From assembly GCF_000382325.1 (NCBI RefSeq), contig NZ_KB908058.1, positions 1 through 64,000 of the forward strand: 64,000 bases of DNA, written 5' to 3'. Under the pieces are notes generated by a model. The model saw nothing but the letters and a program-made list of their open reading frames with translations, was not told where the DNA came from and ran no database searches. The position numbers and the translations under genes were made by a program. Shown here piece after piece: positions 1 to 12,533 of the stretch. This DNA is from Woodsholea maritima DSM 17123. Its GTDB lineage: Bacteria; Pseudomonadota; Alphaproteobacteria; Caulobacterales; Maricaulaceae. Positions within the stretch are counted from its first letter, which is position 1. Each line of letters starts with the position of its first letter.

Positions 1-225
1 TGTGCGCTGACGCTTCTCCGGGATGACAACTCTTTTTTTGCTGTTTTTGCCAAGCGAGGATACTTCACAAGAAGACGCCCCCTCCGGCCGTACCGCCCAC
101 CTCCCCCGCTTTGCAGGGGAGGGGTAAATCGGGCCACCGGCCCGCAGGCGCGAATGTCCTCAAATAGCCAACAGGCGATAGGACAAATAAGAAGTGCGCG
201 CCCGCAGCGTAAGCGAGGATTGGGA
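1..225. repeat. Repeat-island fragment at the window edge
   Basis: This stretch before egtB is built from the same units as the other islands: a CCGGGATGAC tail, the CCCCCTCCGGCC...CCTCCCCCGCTTTGCAGGGGAG double hairpin near 86-122, and the closing unit GAAGTGCGCGCCCGCAGCG near 191-209. The open frame that enters egtB from position 194 begins inside this closing unit, so those first codons are probably not translated. I see no gene here. Confidence 0.75.
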
Positions 226-328
226 TCTTTTCAAAAATCTGTCCGTTTTGCACATCATGGCCCCTTGTTATTTTGTGATATCGGGCCAAGCTAAAGCCAG
301 TCTGTCAGACGCTGCGAAGAGGCTCCCT

Positions 329-1630
329 ATGCACCCTGCGCTCGCCATGCGCCCGGACTTGAACGATCGTGCGCTGTTAAAGGCGCGGTTTTCACGCATC
401 CGCGCGCAAACCGAAGGCCTGACCCAGGGGCTGGCCCCGGAAGACATGCAAGTCCAGACCATGGACGATGTCAGCCCGATGAAATGGCATCTTGCTCATA
501 CCAGCTGGTTTTTTGAAGCCTTTCTGCTTCAGCCCCTGATCAAGGGGTATCAGCCCTTTGATCCTGTGTTCGATTACCTGTTTAATTCTTATTATGAAGC
601 GGTGGGCGAGCGCTGGTCGCGAGCCCGGCGCGGGCTCTTGACCCGGCCCTTGGTGGACGAGGTTTTGCGCTATCGCGCCTATGTCACTGCTCAGGTTGAG
701 CGCGCCATAGAGACGATGGATGAGGCGCTTTGGCATCAGGGCGCGCCCATTATTGAGCTGGGCCTTAATCATGAACAGCAACACCAGGAATTGGCATGCA
801 GCGATATCAAACATGTGCTGGCCGTCTCACCCTTGCCGCATGGGCCATATCCGCGTCCGGAAGAGTTACCCCATAAGAGTGAAGCTTTAGGCGAAATGGC
901 GTTTATGGCGTTTGAAGGCGGGTTGGTCGAGGTCGGGGCCGTGGCTGGATCCGGCTTTGTCTATGACAATGAATTGCCGCGCCACACAGTTTATCTCTAC
1001 CCGTTTGAGCTGGCCCAGCGCCCGGTGTCGAATGGCGAATGGCTGAACTTTATGGCTGATGGGGGATATCAGCGCGCGGAGTTTTGGCTTTCCGAGGGCT
1101 GGGCCATGGTTCAGGGCGAGCGCCTTCAGGCCCCGCTCTACTGGCGTCAAATCGCAGGCGAGTGGCACGAATATACCCTTCATGGCCCGCAGAAACTCGA
1201 TCCCGATCAACCGGTTTGTCATATCTCCGGCTATGAAGCGGCGGCCTATGCCAATTGGGCGGGTGCGCGTTTGCCGCTGGAGGCGGAGTTGGAGCTGCTC
1301 GCTCATTGTGCGCCGCCAGAAGGACGCCTGCTTTTCAATCAACCCGGCGTTCACCCCGCCCGGATGCAGGCCGGGGACGGCCTTCAAGCGGTCTATGGCG
1401 GGGTGTGGGAATGGACCCAAAGCGCCTATAGCGCTTATCCGGGCTATCATCCGCCAAAGGGTGCGGTGGGTGAATATAATGGTAAGTTCATGGCCTCCCA
1501 ATGGGTGCTGCGCGGCGGCTCGTGTGCCACGCCCTATGACCATGTGCGCGCCAGCTATCGCAATTTCTTCCCCCCATCGGCACGCTGGCAATTTAGCGGC
1601 CTGCGTCTGGCGCGTGATTTATCGGCCTAA
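329..1630 (+). CDS. egtB: EgtB-type sulfoxide synthase
   Basis: This is a non-haem iron enzyme of the EgtB family, which joins the ring of N-trimethylhistidine (hercynine) to a thiol with oxygen during ergothioneine synthesis. From the ATG at 329 the protein has 433 residues, the usual size. The N-terminal DinB-like part carries the iron site: HLAH at residue 54 and HEQQHQE at 148-154. The C-terminal half, from about residue 180, is a formylglycine-generating-enzyme-like fold ending in GGVWEWTQS, WVLRGGSC and SGLRLARD. An open frame continues upstream to 194 but lies in repeat DNA, and a purine-rich GAAGAGG precedes 329. The usual partner egtD (histidine methyltransferase) is not next door. 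The murL gene starts 38 bases downstream, so co-transcription is possible. An OvoA-like substrate preference cannot be excluded. Confidence 0.85.
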   Translation: MHPALAMRPDLNDRALLKARFSRIRAQTEGLTQGLAPEDMQVQTMDDVSPMKWHLAHTSWFFEAFLLQPLIKGYQPFDPVFDYLFNSYYEAVGERWSRARRGLLTRPLVDEVLRYRAYVTAQVERAIETMDEALWHQGAPIIELGLNHEQQHQELACSDIKHVLAVSPLPHGPYPRPEELPHKSEALGEMAFMAFEGGLVEVGAVAGSGFVYDNELPRHTVYLYPFELAQRPVSNGEWLNFMADGGYQRAEFWLSEGWAMVQGERLQAPLYWRQIAGEWHEYTLHGPQKLDPDQPVCHISGYEAAAYANWAGARLPLEAELELLAHCAPPEGRLLFNQPGVHPARMQAGDGLQAVYGGVWEWTQSAYSAYPGYHPPKGAVGEYNGKFMASQWVLRGGSCATPYDHVRASYRNFFPPSARWQFSGLRLARDLSA

Positions 1631-1668: not shown

Positions 1669-2991
1669 ATGATAGCGATGGCTTCACGCTTTCACATTGC
1701 GCACTATCACTGGGACGCAGCCTCAGCCAGCGTGACCTTTGACTATGTATGCGATCGCTATGGCGCGTTCAGCGAGACGATCCGGTTTGCGCGCGAAGAC
1801 TTCCATCCTGAACGCTTAGAGGCCGCACCGGGCCTTATTCGTTTGGCCCAGGCTCTGATCGGGGTCAGCTATTATAAGGCCGCCGCCGCGCCCGAGCTTA
1901 TCCTGCCCGATGAGGTGCTCAGCGCGCAAAGCCTTGGCGCGATTGAGGCCGCCTATCAAGATGGCTTGGGCGAATTTCGCGTGCGCAATGGCTTGGCGCA
2001 TCCCGGCGTGTTAAGCTTGGTCGGGCGTGCCAAAACGGGACAGGGCTGCGATAAGCTCGCGTTAAATCAAGAGCATGCCCTGGTGGCCTGGGGCGGCGGT
2101 AAAGATTCTGCCGTTGTGCGCCATTTCGTGACACGCGCCGGTATCGCCGCGCGCGTCTATTCCGTGGCGACCAGTGATCGCGTCAAAGATGTCTTGCAGG
2201 ACACCGCCGGTGGCACCCTCAATTTCATCGACCGGCGCATTGACCCGCGCTTGATCGCGGCGAATGAGGCCGGGGCCCTCAACGGTCATGTGCCCGTGAC
2301 GGCGATCAATTCAATCCTATTGAGTTTAGCGGCCGTGATGCGCGGGGCGGGCCAGGTAGTGTTCGCCAATGAACGCTCCGCCGATGAGCCGACCTTGGTG
2401 ATGGATGGCGCCGGGGTGAACCATCAATATTCCAAATCCTACGCGTTTGAGGCTTTGCTGCGGGCCGCCTTGGCCAGTGAAACCGGCGGTGCGCTCAGCT
2501 ATTATTCGGCCCTGCGCCCCGTGTCAGAGATTTGGATCGCGCGTCAGATCACGGGTCTGGACGATGTGGCCCGGATTACCAGCTGTAATCGCAATTTCCA
2601 CATTGCCAAGGGCGCGGACACGCGCTGGTGTCGAACTTGCCCTAAATGCGCCTTCACCTTCTTGATTTTTGCGCCTTTCCTGGCGCGTGATCGGGCCGAA
2701 CTGATTTTTGGCGGCAACCTTTTGGCTGATACAGGGCTTATCCCTTTATATGAAGAGATACTGGGCTTTGGCACGCAAAAACCCTGGGAGTGCGTGGGCA
2801 CGATAGAGGAGGCGCGCACGGCGTTGAGCCTTCTGCAGACGCGCCCCGACTGGCAGGACGTGGCCCTGGTTCGTCATTTTGCGCCACGGTTAAGCGATTT
2901 TGATCGTGACGGCCACTATAAAGCCTTGTTAGAGTTTAAAGATCCCCACCATCTACCCGATGGTTTGTTGCAAGAGATGATGCATGGCTGA
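1669..2991 (+). CDS. murL: MurL, UDP-MurNAc-L-Ala-L-Glu epimerase
   Basis: The protein resembles MurL, which uses ATP to invert the terminal L-Glu of UDP-MurNAc-L-Ala-L-Glu and so supplies D-Glu to peptidoglycan without a free D-glutamate racemase step. It has 440 residues. Visible marks are WGGGKDS at 141-147 (a PP-loop-like nucleotide site), FANERSAD at 232-239, and a cysteine set C306, C321, C324, C327 (SCNRNF then WCRTCPKC) that looks like a metal site. The start may instead be the ATG at 1678, which has GGGAT seven bases upstream. The gene overlaps murD2 by 8 bases, and murD2 is the known partner ligase of MurL in Xanthomonas, which strongly supports the call. Confidence 0.85.
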   Translation: MIAMASRFHIAHYHWDAASASVTFDYVCDRYGAFSETIRFAREDFHPERLEAAPGLIRLAQALIGVSYYKAAAAPELILPDEVLSAQSLGAIEAAYQDGLGEFRVRNGLAHPGVLSLVGRAKTGQGCDKLALNQEHALVAWGGGKDSAVVRHFVTRAGIAARVYSVATSDRVKDVLQDTAGGTLNFIDRRIDPRLIAANEAGALNGHVPVTAINSILLSLAAVMRGAGQVVFANERSADEPTLVMDGAGVNHQYSKSYAFEALLRAALASETGGALSYYSALRPVSEIWIARQITGLDDVARITSCNRNFHIAKGADTRWCRTCPKCAFTFLIFAPFLARDRAELIFGGNLLADTGLIPLYEEILGFGTQKPWECVGTIEEARTALSLLQTRPDWQDVALVRHFAPRLSDFDRDGHYKALLEFKDPHHLPDGLLQEMMHG

Positions 2992-4390
2992 GCCGCAATC
3001 GCCTTTATCCTGGTCCTATGATGGCGTGGTGCTGATCGGGTGGGGGCGCGAGGCCCAGGGCGCGTCGCGTTTTCTGGATGCCTTCTATCCCGATTGCCCG
3101 GTTTTAGTGCTGTATGAGGGCGAGGGCGCGCCTGACCTTCCCACCGGGATCACCGCCCAGTCGCAAGCGGATTTCCTAAGCCAGGGCTTGGCGCTTGATA
3201 TGGCTGCGCCCTTGGTGCTGCGCTCGCCCGGTATTGCGCCGGGCAATCGCGTCATTGTGAAGCTGGAAAGCCTGGGCGCGGACATCACCACGCCGACGGG
3301 CTATTGGCTGTCGCTCCAGGGCCGCGATCGCCTGATCACCGTCACTGGCACCAAAGGCAAAAGCACGACCGTCAGTTTGATCACCCATATTCTGCGCGCC
3401 GGTGGGATTAATGCGGTCAGCGTGGGCAATATCGGTGCACCGCCCTTGGATGATCGCCCGTTTGAGGTGGATGTCGTGGTCGCAGAGCTCTCCTCCTATC
3501 AGCTTCATGATGCGATGGGGGCGGGCCGGGTCCATGTCATCACCAATCTCTATCGTGAGCACACCGACTGGCATGGCGGGCATGAGGCCTATGCGGGCGC
3601 GAAAATGGCCCCGGCGGGGCGTTTCCCCGACTTGACCGTGTTGAGCCAGCCGGAGATTTTGGCGGCGCTGCCCGCTCAGCATACCGGCGCGCGTCTGGCC
3701 TTTGAAGATTATGTCCCGGCGGATTTGGACAAGGGCGAGATTTATTTGCCCCACCAAGCCGCGCTGGCCTTAACGCCGTTAAATGCGCGCCTGGCGGGCT
3801 CGATCATGACGCAAAGCGTGCGCATGGCCTGTGCGGCGATTTTGGCCGGTGAGCATTTAACGCCCGGGGCGCTTTATCAGGCCCTCATCACGGGGCTTCC
3901 CAGCTGGACGCCCTTACCTCATCGCCTAGAAACCATTGGTGAGATTGGAAAAGTCGCCTGGATTGATGATAGCCTCGCCACCGTGCCTGAGGCGGTGATG
4001 TCTGCGATCCAGGTTATCTTGCATCGCCCCTTGCATCTGATCATGGGCGGGCGCCATCGCGGTCAGGACTGGACGCAGTTCTGTGAGCATCTGCAGACGC
4101 TGCATAATGTGCGCCTTTATCTTTTTGGCACCATCGCTGAGGAGGTCGCCGAAGGGCTGAACGGCGTTGGGATCGAAGAGGGCTTTCACACGTTTGAAAG
4201 CTTTGAAGCCGCGATCCAAGCCGCCCATCTGGCCTCGCAGACAGAGGGTGGGGCGGTGGTGTTCTCACCGGGTGCGGCCTCAGAAGGCGTTCATGCCAAT
4301 TATGAGCATCGCTCAGGCATTTTCCGCCTGGAATGGGCGCGCGCCCTGGCCGAGCACATGACCGCGCACAGTAAAATTGCTGATCTCTAA
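2984..4390 (+). CDS. murD2: MurD2, UDP-MurNAc-L-Ala L-glutamate ligase
   Basis: This is a Mur ligase of 468 residues that would add L-Glu to UDP-MurNAc-L-Ala in the cytoplasm, the step before MurL epimerisation. The P-loop TGTKGKST is at 121-128, the SSYQ motif at 170-173, and a REHTDWH stretch with conserved histidines follows at 191-197. A C-terminal Mur domain carries GGRHRGQDW. Sequence alone cannot separate a MurD (D-Glu) from a MurD2 (L-Glu) ligase; the MurD2 call rests on its translational overlap with murL. The start ATG lies inside the last codons of murL, suggesting coupling. Whether the genome also has a classical murD and murI cannot be seen here. Confidence 0.8.
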   Translation: MAEPQSPLSWSYDGVVLIGWGREAQGASRFLDAFYPDCPVLVLYEGEGAPDLPTGITAQSQADFLSQGLALDMAAPLVLRSPGIAPGNRVIVKLESLGADITTPTGYWLSLQGRDRLITVTGTKGKSTTVSLITHILRAGGINAVSVGNIGAPPLDDRPFEVDVVVAELSSYQLHDAMGAGRVHVITNLYREHTDWHGGHEAYAGAKMAPAGRFPDLTVLSQPEILAALPAQHTGARLAFEDYVPADLDKGEIYLPHQAALALTPLNARLAGSIMTQSVRMACAAILAGEHLTPGALYQALITGLPSWTPLPHRLETIGEIGKVAWIDDSLATVPEAVMSAIQVILHRPLHLIMGGRHRGQDWTQFCEHLQTLHNVRLYLFGTIAEEVAEGLNGVGIEEGFHTFESFEAAIQAAHLASQTEGGAVVFSPGAASEGVHANYEHRSGIFRLEWARALAEHMTAHSKIADL

Positions 4391-4461
4391 GCACGCGGCG
4401 TGATGATCGTGTCTTATTCTTCGGCTAAAGCCCTCACACTCAACGCTAAAAGGAGCCTTTC

Positions 4462-5856
4462 ATGACGCGCACACATTTCATCGGCATTGGCGGTGTAGGG
4501 ATGAGCGCGGTGGCCACTCTGGCTCAACAGGCCGGCGATCAGGTCTCAGGCTCGGATTATCAGGTCTATCCCCCCGCCAGCACCTATCTGGAGGAGCGCG
4601 GCTTTGATTGGCATGATGGCTATAGCCCGGCCAATATTCCCGCCGGTGTGGATCGCTTCGTCATCGGCATGAATGCCAAGCTGAACCCCGAAGTGAATGA
4701 CGAGGTGAAAGCCGCGATGGAGACCGGCCAGCCGATCTTCTCCTTCGCCAGCTTTATGAGTGAGATCCTTAAAACGCGCGAACCCTTGGTGGTGGCGGGC
4801 AGTTCGGGAAAGTCCACGACGACCGCGATTGCGGCCTGGCTGCTGCGCGCCTGCGGCGTGGAGGCGGGTTATATGATCGGTGCGCGAGCCAAGGATCTTG
4901 CCACCACGGCCGATCTGGGCGAGGTACCGACCTTCGTCATTGAAGGCGATGAATACCCCTCCAATCATTTCGATCCTTCGGCGAAATTCCTGCATTATTG
5001 CGCCCATGATGTGATCGTGACCTCGGTCAGTCATGACCATGTCAATGTCTATCCCACGGTGACGGCCTTTGAAGCACCCTTCCGCATTCTGCTGGCGGAT
5101 TTGCCCGCGGGGGGTATCGCCGCGCTGTGCGCCAATCATCCCCGGGTCGTGGAACTGGCAAAGGAATGCCCGGCCCAGATCGTCACGTATGGCGTGGATG
5201 TGAAGGCCGATTGGTGCGCGCGCCATGTCAGGGCGCACGGCGCGATGACGGTGTTTGAGCTTTTTAAAGGCGAACAGAGCCTCGGTCAGTTTGAGACCCA
5301 ATTGATCGGCGCGCATAATGTGCAAAATATCGTCGGCGTTATCGCCTGGGCGGTGGAGCGCGGCCTGATCACGCCAGAGGCGGCGCGCGCCGCCCTGTCC
5401 AACTTTCGCGGTATCGCCCGGCGTTTGGAGCGTGTTTCCAAGCAAGAAACTGTCCCGGTTTATGAGGGCTTTGGCTCATCCCTGGAAAAAACCCGCGCCG
5501 CGATAACGGCCCTAAAAGACCATTTTGGCACGCGGGCTTTGACAGTGGTCTTTGAGCCCCACGCCTTTTCCTGGCGCAACCGGGCCATGCTGTCCTGGTA
5601 TGATACGGCGTTTTTAGGTGCGGCACGGGTATTCATCCTGCCCCCCGAAGAGCAGGGCAAAGCGGGGCATGATCAAAGTAGCCATGAGGAAATTTTAGCC
5701 CGCGCCAATGCCAGCGGCGTCGCGGCCGAAGCCTATGACCGTGCGCGTGTCATTGAGAGCGTGGAGCGTGAGGGCGTGGTCTTGATCCTCACCTCCGGCA
5801 ATCTGGAAGGGGATTTATTCCCGCTGTGCCAGGGTTTGGACGCGGCCTTCGCCTAA
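4462..5856 (+). CDS. Mpl/MurC-like Mur ligase with altered motifs
   Basis: This Mur-family ligase of 464 residues is closest by eye to Mpl (UDP-MurNAc:L-Ala-gamma-D-Glu-mDAP ligase, peptidoglycan recycling). Supporting marks are the N-terminal FIGIGGVGMSA, the Mpl-like VIEGDEYPSNHFD at 159-171, HDH at 191-193, RRLE at 320-323 and FEPHAFS at 364-370. It departs from the family in two places. The P-loop reads GSSGKSTT (113-120) where MurC/Mpl have GTHGKTTT, and the C-terminal DDxxHHP signature is replaced by EGFGSS (335-340). AAAGGAG precedes the ATG. It lies 71 bases after murD2, so it may share its transcript, and it converges with the DUF3299 gene by a 4-base overlap. It may be Mpl, or a paralogue that ligates another substrate. 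Confidence 0.7.
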   Translation: MTRTHFIGIGGVGMSAVATLAQQAGDQVSGSDYQVYPPASTYLEERGFDWHDGYSPANIPAGVDRFVIGMNAKLNPEVNDEVKAAMETGQPIFSFASFMSEILKTREPLVVAGSSGKSTTTAIAAWLLRACGVEAGYMIGARAKDLATTADLGEVPTFVIEGDEYPSNHFDPSAKFLHYCAHDVIVTSVSHDHVNVYPTVTAFEAPFRILLADLPAGGIAALCANHPRVVELAKECPAQIVTYGVDVKADWCARHVRAHGAMTVFELFKGEQSLGQFETQLIGAHNVQNIVGVIAWAVERGLITPEAARAALSNFRGIARRLERVSKQETVPVYEGFGSSLEKTRAAITALKDHFGTRALTVVFEPHAFSWRNRAMLSWYDTAFLGAARVFILPPEEQGKAGHDQSSHEEILARANASGVAAEAYDRARVIESVEREGVVLILTSGNLEGDLFPLCQGLDAAFA

Positions 5857-6446
5857 GGCCGGGTCAAATGAGTTTCATAGGGCTCGCTGGCATCGAGATA
5901 GAGCGTATAGGCGCTCTCAGCGAGCTCGCTTTCCATGCGCTCGACCTTCATAATGCCCTCAACCCAGACCGGCTGCCACATCTCACCGCGCGGCCAGGGC
6001 TCAGCGCTGATCACATAGACGATTTGATTGGCCGGTGGGGGTGGGGTGTGGATGCAGGCCCCATAATAGGGCACCAGTAAGAAGCGGCTGGCTTGCCCTC
6101 CCGCCAAAAGATCTAGCGGCATCAGATAGCCGGGCATGCGGATGTATTCGCCGTCTAAATCGGCAACCACATTAAAGCCTTCAACCTGTTGGGCGGCCGG
6201 TGCATTTTCATTATGCGCGCCTAAGGGCGTTTCAAGCTGGGCATAGGCCTCCCACAGGCGTTCGGCCTCACCCTCAGGCAAGAGATCATCCCAGACGATA
6301 TCCTCGGGGCTTTGATCCTGGGGCGCGTCATAGAAGGGGGAGGGGGCCTGCCAATCGGCTAGTGCTGTCTCTTTGGGGCTTGGCTCACACGCGCCCAGCA
6401 TGAGAAGAGCGGACATGCCCGCCAAAAGGCCCGTTAGGCGCGCCAT
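5853..6446 (-). CDS. DUF3299 lipoprotein downstream of zrgA
   Basis: The product is a 197-residue DUF3299 protein. It starts with a lipoprotein signal ending LMLGAC (Cys20), so it is probably anchored in the periplasm. The family core is clear: WDDLLPEGE near 52-60, IRMPGYLMPLD, and FLLVPYYGACIHTPPPPANQ. Function is not established; DUF3299 genes recur beside zinc-regulated ZrgA genes. Here the gene begins 8 bases after zrgA and should be transcribed from the same Zur-box promoter. A second DUF3299 copy lies at 10038-10553. The conserved Cys-His-Pro run suggests metal or thiol chemistry, but that is inference. Confidence 0.8.
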   Translation of the reverse strand: MARLTGLLAGMSALLMLGACEPSPKETALADWQAPSPFYDAPQDQSPEDIVWDDLLPEGEAERLWEAYAQLETPLGAHNENAPAAQQVEGFNVVADLDGEYIRMPGYLMPLDLLAGGQASRFLLVPYYGACIHTPPPPANQIVYVISAEPWPRGEMWQPVWVEGIMKVERMESELAESAYTLYLDASEPYETHLTRP

Positions 6447-10037: not shown

Positions 10038-10553
10038 TTAGGGGGCGTAGGGTGTGATGTCATCGGCGCGCATCGTATAAGCCGCATTGGCCAGATCCGT
10101 GTCGGAGCGTTCAATCTTGAATAACCCCGTCACCCAGACGGGCTCCCACATTTTCTTGATCACGAAGGGCGTCTCGGTGTGCACGACCACGATCTGATTG
10201 GGCGGCGGCGGGGGAGCGTGAATGCAGGCCCCATGATAGGGTAAGAGTAAGAAGCCGCGCGCGGCCCCGCCTTCGCCATAGTCGATCGGTAACAGATAGC
10301 CCGGCAGGCGCGCATAGACGCCGTCTAAATCTTCGACGATGGCAAAATCTTGAATCTGTTCATTTTTGCGGCTCTCCCCCAGTCCCGTGGGGCTTGATAA
10401 GCGCGTATTGACCTCAGGGATGGCGAGGTCTGGGGCGTTCTGCGGGCGTAAATCGGCCCAATTCAAGCTTTGCGCCTGTTGCGAGGGTGGCGGTGAGCAA
10501 GAGGCAAGCATCTGAATTAAAATAACAAAAAAGAAGATTTGTCGCAAGGGCAT
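10038..10553 (-). CDS. Second DUF3299 lipoprotein
   Basis: This is a paralogue of the DUF3299 gene beside zrgA. From the ATG at 10553 it has 171 residues, a hydrophobic signal and a lipobox LASC (Cys17). The family core is present: LNWADLRPQN, ARLPGYLLPIDYG, FLLLPYHGACIHAPPPPPNQ and WEPVWVTGLFKIER. The open frame runs further upstream to 10739, but that part lacks a signal and overlaps the divergent kinase gene. It is not beside a zrgA and I see no Zur box upstream, so it may be regulated differently from the first copy. Function unknown. Confidence 0.78.
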   Translation of the reverse strand: MPLRQIFFFVILIQMLASCSPPPSQQAQSLNWADLRPQNAPDLAIPEVNTRLSSPTGLGESRKNEQIQDFAIVEDLDGVYARLPGYLLPIDYGEGGAARGFLLLPYHGACIHAPPPPPNQIVVVHTETPFVIKKMWEPVWVTGLFKIERSDTDLANAAYTMRADDITPYAP

Positions 10554-10688
10554 AGGAGAATCTTTTGAAAAAATTTGGTTCAGACCAATGGGAACACGCG
10601 GTGTTAACGCCTGTTGTCGATAATGGTCACTAAAGCGTCGCATATTCAAACAAAAAAGCAACGCATAAGACGACGGGTGGAGTGTGGG

Positions 10689-12533
10689 ATGAAGTCGGTA
10701 AAAACCGCACAAACTAGTGCCGAAAAGGCGCTTGAACAACGCATTCGCGATGCGCGCTACCGTTTGGTCGCCGAAGGGGCTCTGCAGTCTGGTCCATTGA
10801 ATATTGTCAATGGGGCCGTGCTGATGGGGTTTTTCTATACCGATGTCGCCTGGTGGCTGCGCCTGGGTTGGTTGGCCATGATGACCGTGGCCGTGGCCGG
10901 ACGGGTGTTAACCATGCGCCGGGCCATGAAGGAAGACCGTGCGCCGACACCCATGGAAATGCGCATTTATACCATCCTATCGGGACTGGTTGGACTGGTA
11001 TGGGGATCAAGCCTGTTTCTGTTACCCAGCTATGCCAATCCCTTGGCGTGGCAATGTACGATGTTGATCCTGGCCGGGATGGCCGCCGGGGCGGCCTTGT
11101 CCTCTGCGCCCGAACCGCGCGTTGTCGCCGCCTATAATTTGCCCGCGCTGGGTTTGTTAACCGTCTTTTTAGGGCTACAGCAGACCTATCTGCATGGTGT
11201 GATGGCGGGTCTGACCATCCTCTTCTTCTTCGTGATGCAGCGCCTTGCCTGGACCAATAGTCGCTATCTGGTCGATGCCGTGAAATCGCGCACCTCTTTG
11301 GAAGATACCCAGCGCCGCTCTGAAGCGCAAAGTGAAGCCTTACTGCGCTTGGCGGAAGAGCATGAGGAAGCTGCACGCCGCGCCGAAGAAAGCGCCAAGA
11401 AAAATGCCGCCGTTCTGGTCAATATGAGCCATGATCTGCGCGGTCCGTTGAGCGAAGTCCTGGGTGTCACGGATATTTTGAAGCGGGCCAATCTGGATGC
11501 GGAAAATGCCTCCATGGTGGAGATGATGGCTGGGTCTGGTCAGCAATTATCTTACCTGATCCATGATGTGCTGGATTATGCGCGCATTCAGGCGGGTCAG
11601 ATGGAGCTTTACCTCTCTGACATCACCTGCGAAACCCTTGGGGAGCATTTGCGCCGTCATGGTGAGCCACGCGCTAAGTCCAAAGGCATCCGCTTCAGTG
11701 TGAAGGTCACCGGCGATACCGAGCGGGCTATGCGCATGGATGCGCAGCGTGTTGAGCAGATTTTGAAGCTGTTCATCAATAATGCAGTGCGCTTTACCGA
11801 AAGTGGTGAAGTGGCGGTGATGGTGCATGTTGAATCGCAGCATCAAGAATTGGCGCGGCTTCACGTAGAGGTCCGCGATAGCGGTGTCGGTGTGCCTCCG
11901 GCTCTACGCGCGCATCTGTTCGAAGCGTTCCAACGCGAAGAGCTCGATGATGAGATGCGAGAGGCCGGTACGGGATTGGGCCTGCTTCTTTGTAAGCAAC
12001 TGGCGAATTTCATGCGTGGGGATGTGGGCTATCGCCCGGCCCCGGGCGGCGGGTCCATCATGTGGCTGGATCTGCCTTTGCGCTATTCCAGCCGTCTGGA
12101 CCGTTATTGCGATAATGAAACTATGAGCTTGGCCAAGCGGCGCTTGCGGGTCTTGGTTGCTGAATCCGATGACGTGCGCGCCACCGTATTGCGTGGCCAC
12201 TTACAAGTCATCAATTGCGGGGTCACCAGTGTGACACGCGTAGAAGATGTTTTGCAGGCGCTGCGCTCTTCGGCTTTCGATGCGGTGGTGTTAGGGCCCG
12301 TGGTTGAAAGCGTCGCATCGGAGGGGGTGGCCGAACAGATCCGCGCCATGGCCTCGACGGCCGCTTTGACGCCGATTATCCGACTTGTGCGCGATTTAGG
12401 TGAGCCCATTCGCCACCAGGGCCATGATTATGAACTGGCCTTGCCGATCGTGTCGGATGATCTGACGCGGGCGTTAAATTTGGCAACGGGCGATGGTCTG
12501 ACTTCCACCCATATGATCGCGAAAACGGCTTAA
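10689..12533 (+). CDS. Membrane hybrid histidine kinase with degenerate receiver
   Basis: This is a sensor kinase of 614 residues from the ATG at 10689 (GGAG six bases upstream). The N-terminal 200 residues hold several membrane segments, followed by a coiled coil (about 210-245). The HisKA motif is NMSHDLRGPLSEVLG; the ATPase domain has FINNAVRFTES (N box), DSGVGVPP (G1) and GTGLGLLLCKQ (G2). The C-terminal domain has a receiver-like fold starting LRVLVAESDD, but the place where the phospho-accepting Asp belongs reads DAVVLGPVV, with Gly instead. It therefore looks like a pseudo-receiver. The gene is divergent from a DUF3299 gene and convergent with another hybrid kinase. Signal unknown. Confidence 0.85.
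   Translation: MKSVKTAQTSAEKALEQRIRDARYRLVAEGALQSGPLNIVNGAVLMGFFYTDVAWWLRLGWLAMMTVAVAGRVLTMRRAMKEDRAPTPMEMRIYTILSGLVGLVWGSSLFLLPSYANPLAWQCTMLILAGMAAGAALSSAPEPRVVAAYNLPALGLLTVFLGLQQTYLHGVMAGLTILFFFVMQRLAWTNSRYLVDAVKSRTSLEDTQRRSEAQSEALLRLAEEHEEAARRAEESAKKNAAVLVNMSHDLRGPLSEVLGVTDILKRANLDAENASMVEMMAGSGQQLSYLIHDVLDYARIQAGQMELYLSDITCETLGEHLRRHGEPRAKSKGIRFSVKVTGDTERAMRMDAQRVEQILKLFINNAVRFTESGEVAVMVHVESQHQELARLHVEVRDSGVGVPPALRAHLFEAFQREELDDEMREAGTGLGLLLCKQLANFMRGDVGYRPAPGGGSIMWLDLPLRYSSRLDRYCDNETMSLAKRRLRVLVAESDDVRATVLRGHLQVINCGVTSVTRVEDVLQALRSSAFDAVVLGPVVESVASEGVAEQIRAMASTAALTPIIRLVRDLGEPIRHQGHDYELALPIVSDDLTRALNLATGDGLTSTHMIAKTA

Follow-up and report, generated by a model that had tools for sequence, protein, structure and literature searches.

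A MurL/MurD2 pair and a divergent Mur ligase in Woodsholea maritima, a genome that retains canonical murD

The genes considered here lie in a 64,000-nucleotide stretch of the Woodsholea maritima DSM 17123 genome (contig NZ_KB908058.1, positions 1 to 64,000; hereafter the window), in which three consecutive open reading frames (ORFs) encode MurL, MurD2 and a third Mur ligase, referred to as Lig3. A first-pass annotation of the sequence had read them as a peptidoglycan cassette in which a pair known from Xanthomonas adds L-glutamate (L-Glu) and then epimerises it on the UDP-sugar, followed by an Mpl-like ligase. The cassette is confirmed to be real, the family matches of all three ORFs being far above chance. 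As that annotation had noticed, murL and murD2 overlap, by 8 bases (ATGGCTGA), and Lig3, whose ATG is preceded by an AGGAG ribosome site, follows murD2 at a spacing of 71 bases. The pair is a known system, the third gene is new, and the coexistence with a canonical murD elsewhere in the genome is unusual.

The MurL/MurD2 pair

The first protein matches the NCBIfam MurL model NF041275 over residues 6-437 of its 440 aa with 356.6 bits (E 1.5e-106), the cut-off of 700 bits having been set for Xanthomonadales and being reached by no MurL found in this class. It shows 38-40% identity to Xanthomonas sacchari MurL and to the MurL of a sister genus, with which it groups in the tree (100/100), and 63 alignment columns are invariant across 18 MurL proteins, including a GGGKDS motif and a cysteine cluster that may form a metal site. 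MurL has been described as a protein without known domains that turns ATP to AMP, and adenylation has been proposed (PMC8788868, PMC5808125); the Pfam search of the window protein likewise gave no domain. Its conserved GGxDS-type motif is nevertheless that of the PP-loop ATP pyrophosphatases, which activate their substrates with release of AMP. A MurL profile run against the PDB found TtuA as the best match (E 4e-4) over GGGKDS, with weaker matches to NadE, MJ0690, GuaA and MnmA in the same region. The significant match spans just about 40 residues, and the single-sequence AlphaFold model reached a pLDDT (predicted local distance difference test) of only 33. A PP-loop would fit the proposed adenylation, the likeness being confined to the motif.

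MurL relatives were not found in viral contigs. Two distant MurL-like proteins carry both the PP-loop region (GGGKDS or GGGRDS) and the cysteine cluster, and possibly belong to a wider family; one is encoded in a genome with an ordinary MurD and the other on a Pseudonocardia plasmid, with no MurD adjoining.

The second protein scores 242.7 bits against the MurD model TIGR01087, and its specificity residues set it apart from D-glutamate (D-Glu)-specific MurD. MurD2 of X. oryzae has Glu at the position of E. coli MurD D182 and Arg at that of K348, and reverting both (E197D and R358K) makes it D-Glu-specific, while K319T lets E. coli MurD use L-Glu (PMC8788868). In the alignment, the MurL-linked MurD proteins all carry Arg at the K348 position and either Ile or Leu at that of K319, as does the window protein (Table 1), whereas the canonical MurD of the division and cell wall (dcw) cluster has D/K/K. 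Glu at D182 is not universal in MurD2, since three sister-genus proteins retain Asp. In a tree with MurC and Mpl as outgroup the window protein falls within the MurD2 clade (99/98), nearest to that of X. sacchari (91/91). The gene order is the same in X. sacchari, where murL and murD also overlap, and at 12 loci of the class; MurD2/MurL has been reported in Parvularcula and other alphaproteobacteria (PMC8788868).

The resemblance to the X. oryzae system (XOO_1320/XOO_1319; PMC8788868, PMC5808125) thus extends to the pair itself, the MurD2 switch residues and the absence of MurI. The window genome differs in keeping a canonical dcw murD, in the ligase that follows the pair, and in a highly diverged MurD2 that lacks equivalents of P433 and F435. 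The identity of the pair is held with high confidence, and by analogy with the characterised homologues MurD2 would act as an L-Glu ligase, with the activity of MurL predicted on the same basis. The first-pass reading of the pair is thus supported at both points on which it could have failed, as the second protein does not fall with D-Glu-specific MurD and the first lies inside MurL.

Table 1. Coordinates of the cassette, its motifs and associated features (window positions, or positions in the numbered locus given)
Feature	Position	Strand	Remark
murL	1669-2991	+	440 aa; possible second start at 1678
MurL GGGKDS, residues 142-147	2092..2109	+	PP-loop ATP-pyrophosphatase motif; invariant in 18 MurL
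MurL SCN...WCxxCxKC, residues 305-327	2581..2649	+	Invariant in 18 MurL
murD2	2984-4390	+	468 aa
MurD2 R191-E192-H193	3554..3562	+	E192 aligns with E. coli MurD D182
MurD2 DDSLATV	3965..3985	+	L331 aligns with E. coli MurD K319
MurD2 GGRHRGQD	4046..4069	+	R359 aligns with E. coli MurD K348
Lig3	4462-5856	+	464 aa
Lig3 EGDEY, residues 161-165	4942..4956	+	As in Mpl-type ligases; invariant in 38-row alignment; E. coli Mpl has EADEY
Lig3 EGFGSS, residues 335-340	5464..5481	+	Replaces MurC DDYGHH / Mpl DDFAHH
Lig3 FEPHAFSWR, residues 364-372	5551..5577	+	At position of Mpl EPRSNT substrate-site residues
egtB	194-1630	+	Ergothioneine synthase
DUF3299, first paralogue	5853-6446	-
DUF3299, second paralogue	10038-10739	-
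Sister-genus (g5) MurD-like ORFs	L241:6244-7542, L242:6227-7525, L243:6811-8124, L244:6830-8182		dcw cluster
Distant MurL-like proteins	L146:4113-5552, L210:3938-5338
Nomurabacteria, region of conserved ORF and Lig3-clade gene	L052:2421-5927
Nomurabacteria, second region of conserved ORF and Lig3-clade gene	L051:2594-5110		ORF of 286 aa
ORFs downstream of Lig3-clade genes	L048:7454-8269, L049:7413-8168		Yanofsky-/Wolfebacteria

D-glutamate supply and the retained canonical murD

The genome (3.1 Mb, 100% complete) gave no match to MurI (PF01177) in a search that was positive in 31 of 59 genomes of the family, which bears out the earlier suggestion that the cell can dispense with this enzyme. 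It also holds no D-amino-acid transaminase (Dat) over cut-off; its three class-IV aminotransferases, two IlvE and one PabC-like, all score under the Dat cut-offs, and each IlvE adjoins a LeuA-like ORF, the PabC-like protein a PabB-like one. Across the 59 genomes the D-Glu source was MurI only in 25, Dat only in 21, MurL only in six, MurI with Dat in three and none in four, the last all being less than 90% complete. In no case does MurL co-occur with MurI or Dat (Fisher p 5e-6), and hence MurL occupies the D-Glu slot. Supply of D-Glu by the MurD2/MurL pair is concluded with high confidence, with a caveat for transaminases: a moonlighting source is conceivable because Rv0812, a PabC-type enzyme, is also a D-amino-acid transaminase (PMC8105722).

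The further suggestion, that classical MurD is dispensed with, does not hold. The genome search recovered a dcw cluster (L008) with murE, murF, mraY, murD, ftsW, murG, murC, murB and ddl, in which murC scores 511 bits and murD 336 bits, and its MurD carries D/K/K at the specificity sites with all checked catalytic residues intact. Two MurD genes over cut-off occur in only one of 17 MurL genomes, namely this one (G144, with only a weak, partial match to MurL, is not counted). The dcw murD evolves at roughly double the rate seen in relatives, its product being 46-53% identical to theirs against 58-64% among the relatives themselves, and as MurC has no such gap, the divergence suggests relaxed or changed selection on MurD.

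A MurL-using sister genus (g5, four species) may represent a later stage. Between mraY and ftsW each species has a full-length MurD-like ORF of 432-450 aa which overlaps ftsW, scores just 21-30 bits against the MurD model and, in the alignment, has lost the P-loop lysine, N138, E157, H183 and K198. The four copies are 34-52% identical among themselves, compared with 81-86% for MurC, and their dN/dS (nonsynonymous to synonymous substitution ratio) of about 0.3-0.65, with dS saturated, points to weak constraint and not simply to a pseudogene. Kept in all four species, the protein is a candidate MurD pseudoenzyme; a literature search on such a MurD pseudoenzyme found no relevant paper. Simple loss of dcw murD in g5, an idea from the TIGR01087 search, was rejected, as the dcw clusters show the full-length degenerate ORF. 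These states are most simply read as stages of a displacement: MurD2/MurL came in, MurI or Dat was lost, and MurD was first relaxed, as here, and later became non-catalytic, as in g5, although the order of these steps is a reconstruction.

Alternatively, both routes may run, with the dcw MurD working on D-Glu from a moonlighting PabC- or IlvE-type transaminase, or on D-Glu recovered from recycled peptides or from external ones, while MurD2/MurL would serve as a second or conditional route. This is compatible with the PabC-type precedent, with the catalytic and D-Glu-site residues that the dcw MurD retains, and with its intact position in the cluster. However, neither MurI nor an over-cut-off Dat is available in the genome, and the drop in MurD identity, unmatched in MurC, is what relaxed or changed selection would produce; continued use of both routes is thus considered somewhat unlikely.

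The third ligase

Lig3 falls under the cut-offs of both families it resembles, scoring 232.7 bits for MurC (cut-off 335) and 226.3 bits for Mpl (cut-off 389). Its closest relatives, at 36-49% identity, come from five genomes of the candidate phyla radiation (CPR; Yanofsky-, Wolfe-, Kaiser- and two Nomurabacteria), one uncultured bacterium and one Caulobacteraceae metagenome-assembled genome (MAG). With six of these relatives, the Kaiserbacteria fragment being too short for the tree, Lig3 forms a clade (100/100) that has so far not been described and for which Mpl is the favoured sister (98/95) rather than MurC.

The label Mpl-like would hold as far as the favoured sister relationship goes, and Lig3 is not a classical Mpl. 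It shares with Mpl the three-domain fold, the DEY loop and the FEP motif; it lies outside the Mpl clade, and reads FGSS for FAHH and EPHAFS for EPRSNT. Residues of the DDFAHH and EPRSNT sites are among those likely to set substrate specificity, the latter listed for PaMpl (PMC3060825). The relatives have EGFGSS or AGLGSS at the former site, and neither DDFAHHPTA nor the DDYGHHP motif of MurC is found in Lig3. An AlphaFold model (pLDDT 93.7) has the full MurC/Mpl fold, with H. influenzae MurC as the best structure match (1p3d, Z 44).

Lig3 has no conserved link to MurL and MurD2, contrary to its reading as a cassette member. None of the 20 other MurL loci read contains it, and among the 59 family genomes it occurs only in that of the window, where the next best match (160 bits) is the genome's own MurC. 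Conversely, a MurL model search of the genomes holding Lig3 relatives found none, while the same model gives matches elsewhere. None of the other MurL genes examined has Lig3 as a neighbour; it is therefore no conserved component of the D-Glu route, and a role there is unsupported. Tentatively, Lig3 is predicted to be a UDP-N-acetylmuramic acid (UDP-MurNAc):peptide ligase, and because its position is accessory in the two alphaproteobacteria, Mpl-like re-attachment of a stem peptide is favoured.

Could Lig3 instead be a MurC-type ligase adding L-Ala to UDP-MurNAc? Besides the fold, it shares the UDP-MurNAc-binding N-domain family PF01225 with MurC, and its grouping with MurC is not rejected (approximately unbiased (AU) test, p 0.10). 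In four Lig3-clade genomes, three of CPR and that of the uncultured bacterium (L047, L048, L049 and L052), PF08245 retrieves just three ligases, one Lig3-clade, one MurE-like and one MurF-like; MurC and MurD were not found, though these are fragmentary MAGs that may be incomplete. Yet the window genome has a full classical MurC to which Lig3 is only 33% identical, DDYGHH has become EGFGSS, the tree favours Mpl as sister, and Lig3 accompanies no other MurL; a MurC function is unlikely. The boldest proposal, also improbable, is that Lig3 founds a class of its own among UDP-MurNAc:peptide ligases, its acceptor site being rewritten, which in some CPR would be the sole entry of a pre-formed stem peptide, replacing MurC and MurD, and which was here recruited beside MurD2/MurL while canonical MurD was being displaced.

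In the same four genomes the MurE-like and MurF-like proteins have no N-terminal domain. That this proves peptide-first assembly in CPR was not adopted, as Kaiserbacteria has a short MurE together with MurC and MurD. One Nomurabacteria genome (L052) has MurI near the Lig3-clade gene, with a conserved ORF of unknown family (427 aa) between; its counterpart in L051 also precedes the Lig3-clade gene, and a Pfam search of the L052 ORF gave no match. Immediately downstream of the gene in Yanofsky- and Wolfebacteria lies another ORF, which in L048 matches GNAT/Acetyltransf_6 and, weakly, the arginyl-tRNA-transferase C domain.

Surroundings and interpretation

The cassette is flanked upstream by egtB and downstream by genes for DUF3299, ZrgA and a PiuC-type dioxygenase, none of them a cell-wall gene. 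The three genes have a G+C content of 58.6-60.8%, matching the surroundings, which gives no hint of a very recent transfer. Neither promoter nor terminator scans yielded more sites than shuffled sequence. The egtB gene, on the same strand as murL, stops 38 bases upstream and may be co-transcribed with it. The two DUF3299 paralogues lie about 3.6 kb apart, the first adjoining the ZrgA-type zinc uptake gene. That the cassette serves not peptidoglycan but another product, for instance a metabolite derived from UDP-MurNAc, might be suspected from the coexistence of canonical MurC and MurD and from the fast evolution of MurD2, but is very improbable: no biosynthetic neighbours were recognised, and since no further source of D-Glu exceeds its cut-off, wall synthesis should require the pathway.

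The best explanation as a whole, given a probability of roughly three in four, is that the MurL/MurD2 pair is the genome's D-Glu route into peptidoglycan, Lig3 a separate Mpl-related ligase, and the dcw murD a backup or remnant. The dcw-cluster MurC would supply UDP-MurNAc-L-Ala, to which MurD2 would join L-Glu. Lig3 would probably act outside this route, re-attaching to UDP-MurNAc a stem peptide that already contains D-Glu, and the dcw murD would be either a backup using scarce D-Glu or a remnant heading towards the dead MurD-like protein of g5. Several points weigh against this explanation. An intact canonical murD is odd in a genome supposed to make no D-Glu, and the transaminase precedent leaves another source conceivable; the Fisher probability is optimistic, because the profiled genomes are related and independence is overstated; MurD2 sits on a very long branch, the AU test does not reject its grouping with canonical MurD (p 0.14), and two further MurD2-like residues are missing from it, the P and F of X. 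sacchari being replaced by A and E; and the separation of Lig3 from MurC carries the statistical doubt given above.

Narrow-spectrum antibiotics directed at the MurD2/MurL pathway have been proposed, and a PP-loop would give a testable basis for the unexplained ATP-to-AMP chemistry of MurL. Among cell-wall ligases, the Lig3 clade stands for an acceptor specificity that is still uncharacterised, and it draws attention to CPR genomes where both MurC and MurD went undetected. The genome as a whole illustrates a route by which the classical pathway may be displaced, with MurI and Dat gone, MurD intact but evolving faster, and its counterpart in g5 apparently non-catalytic.
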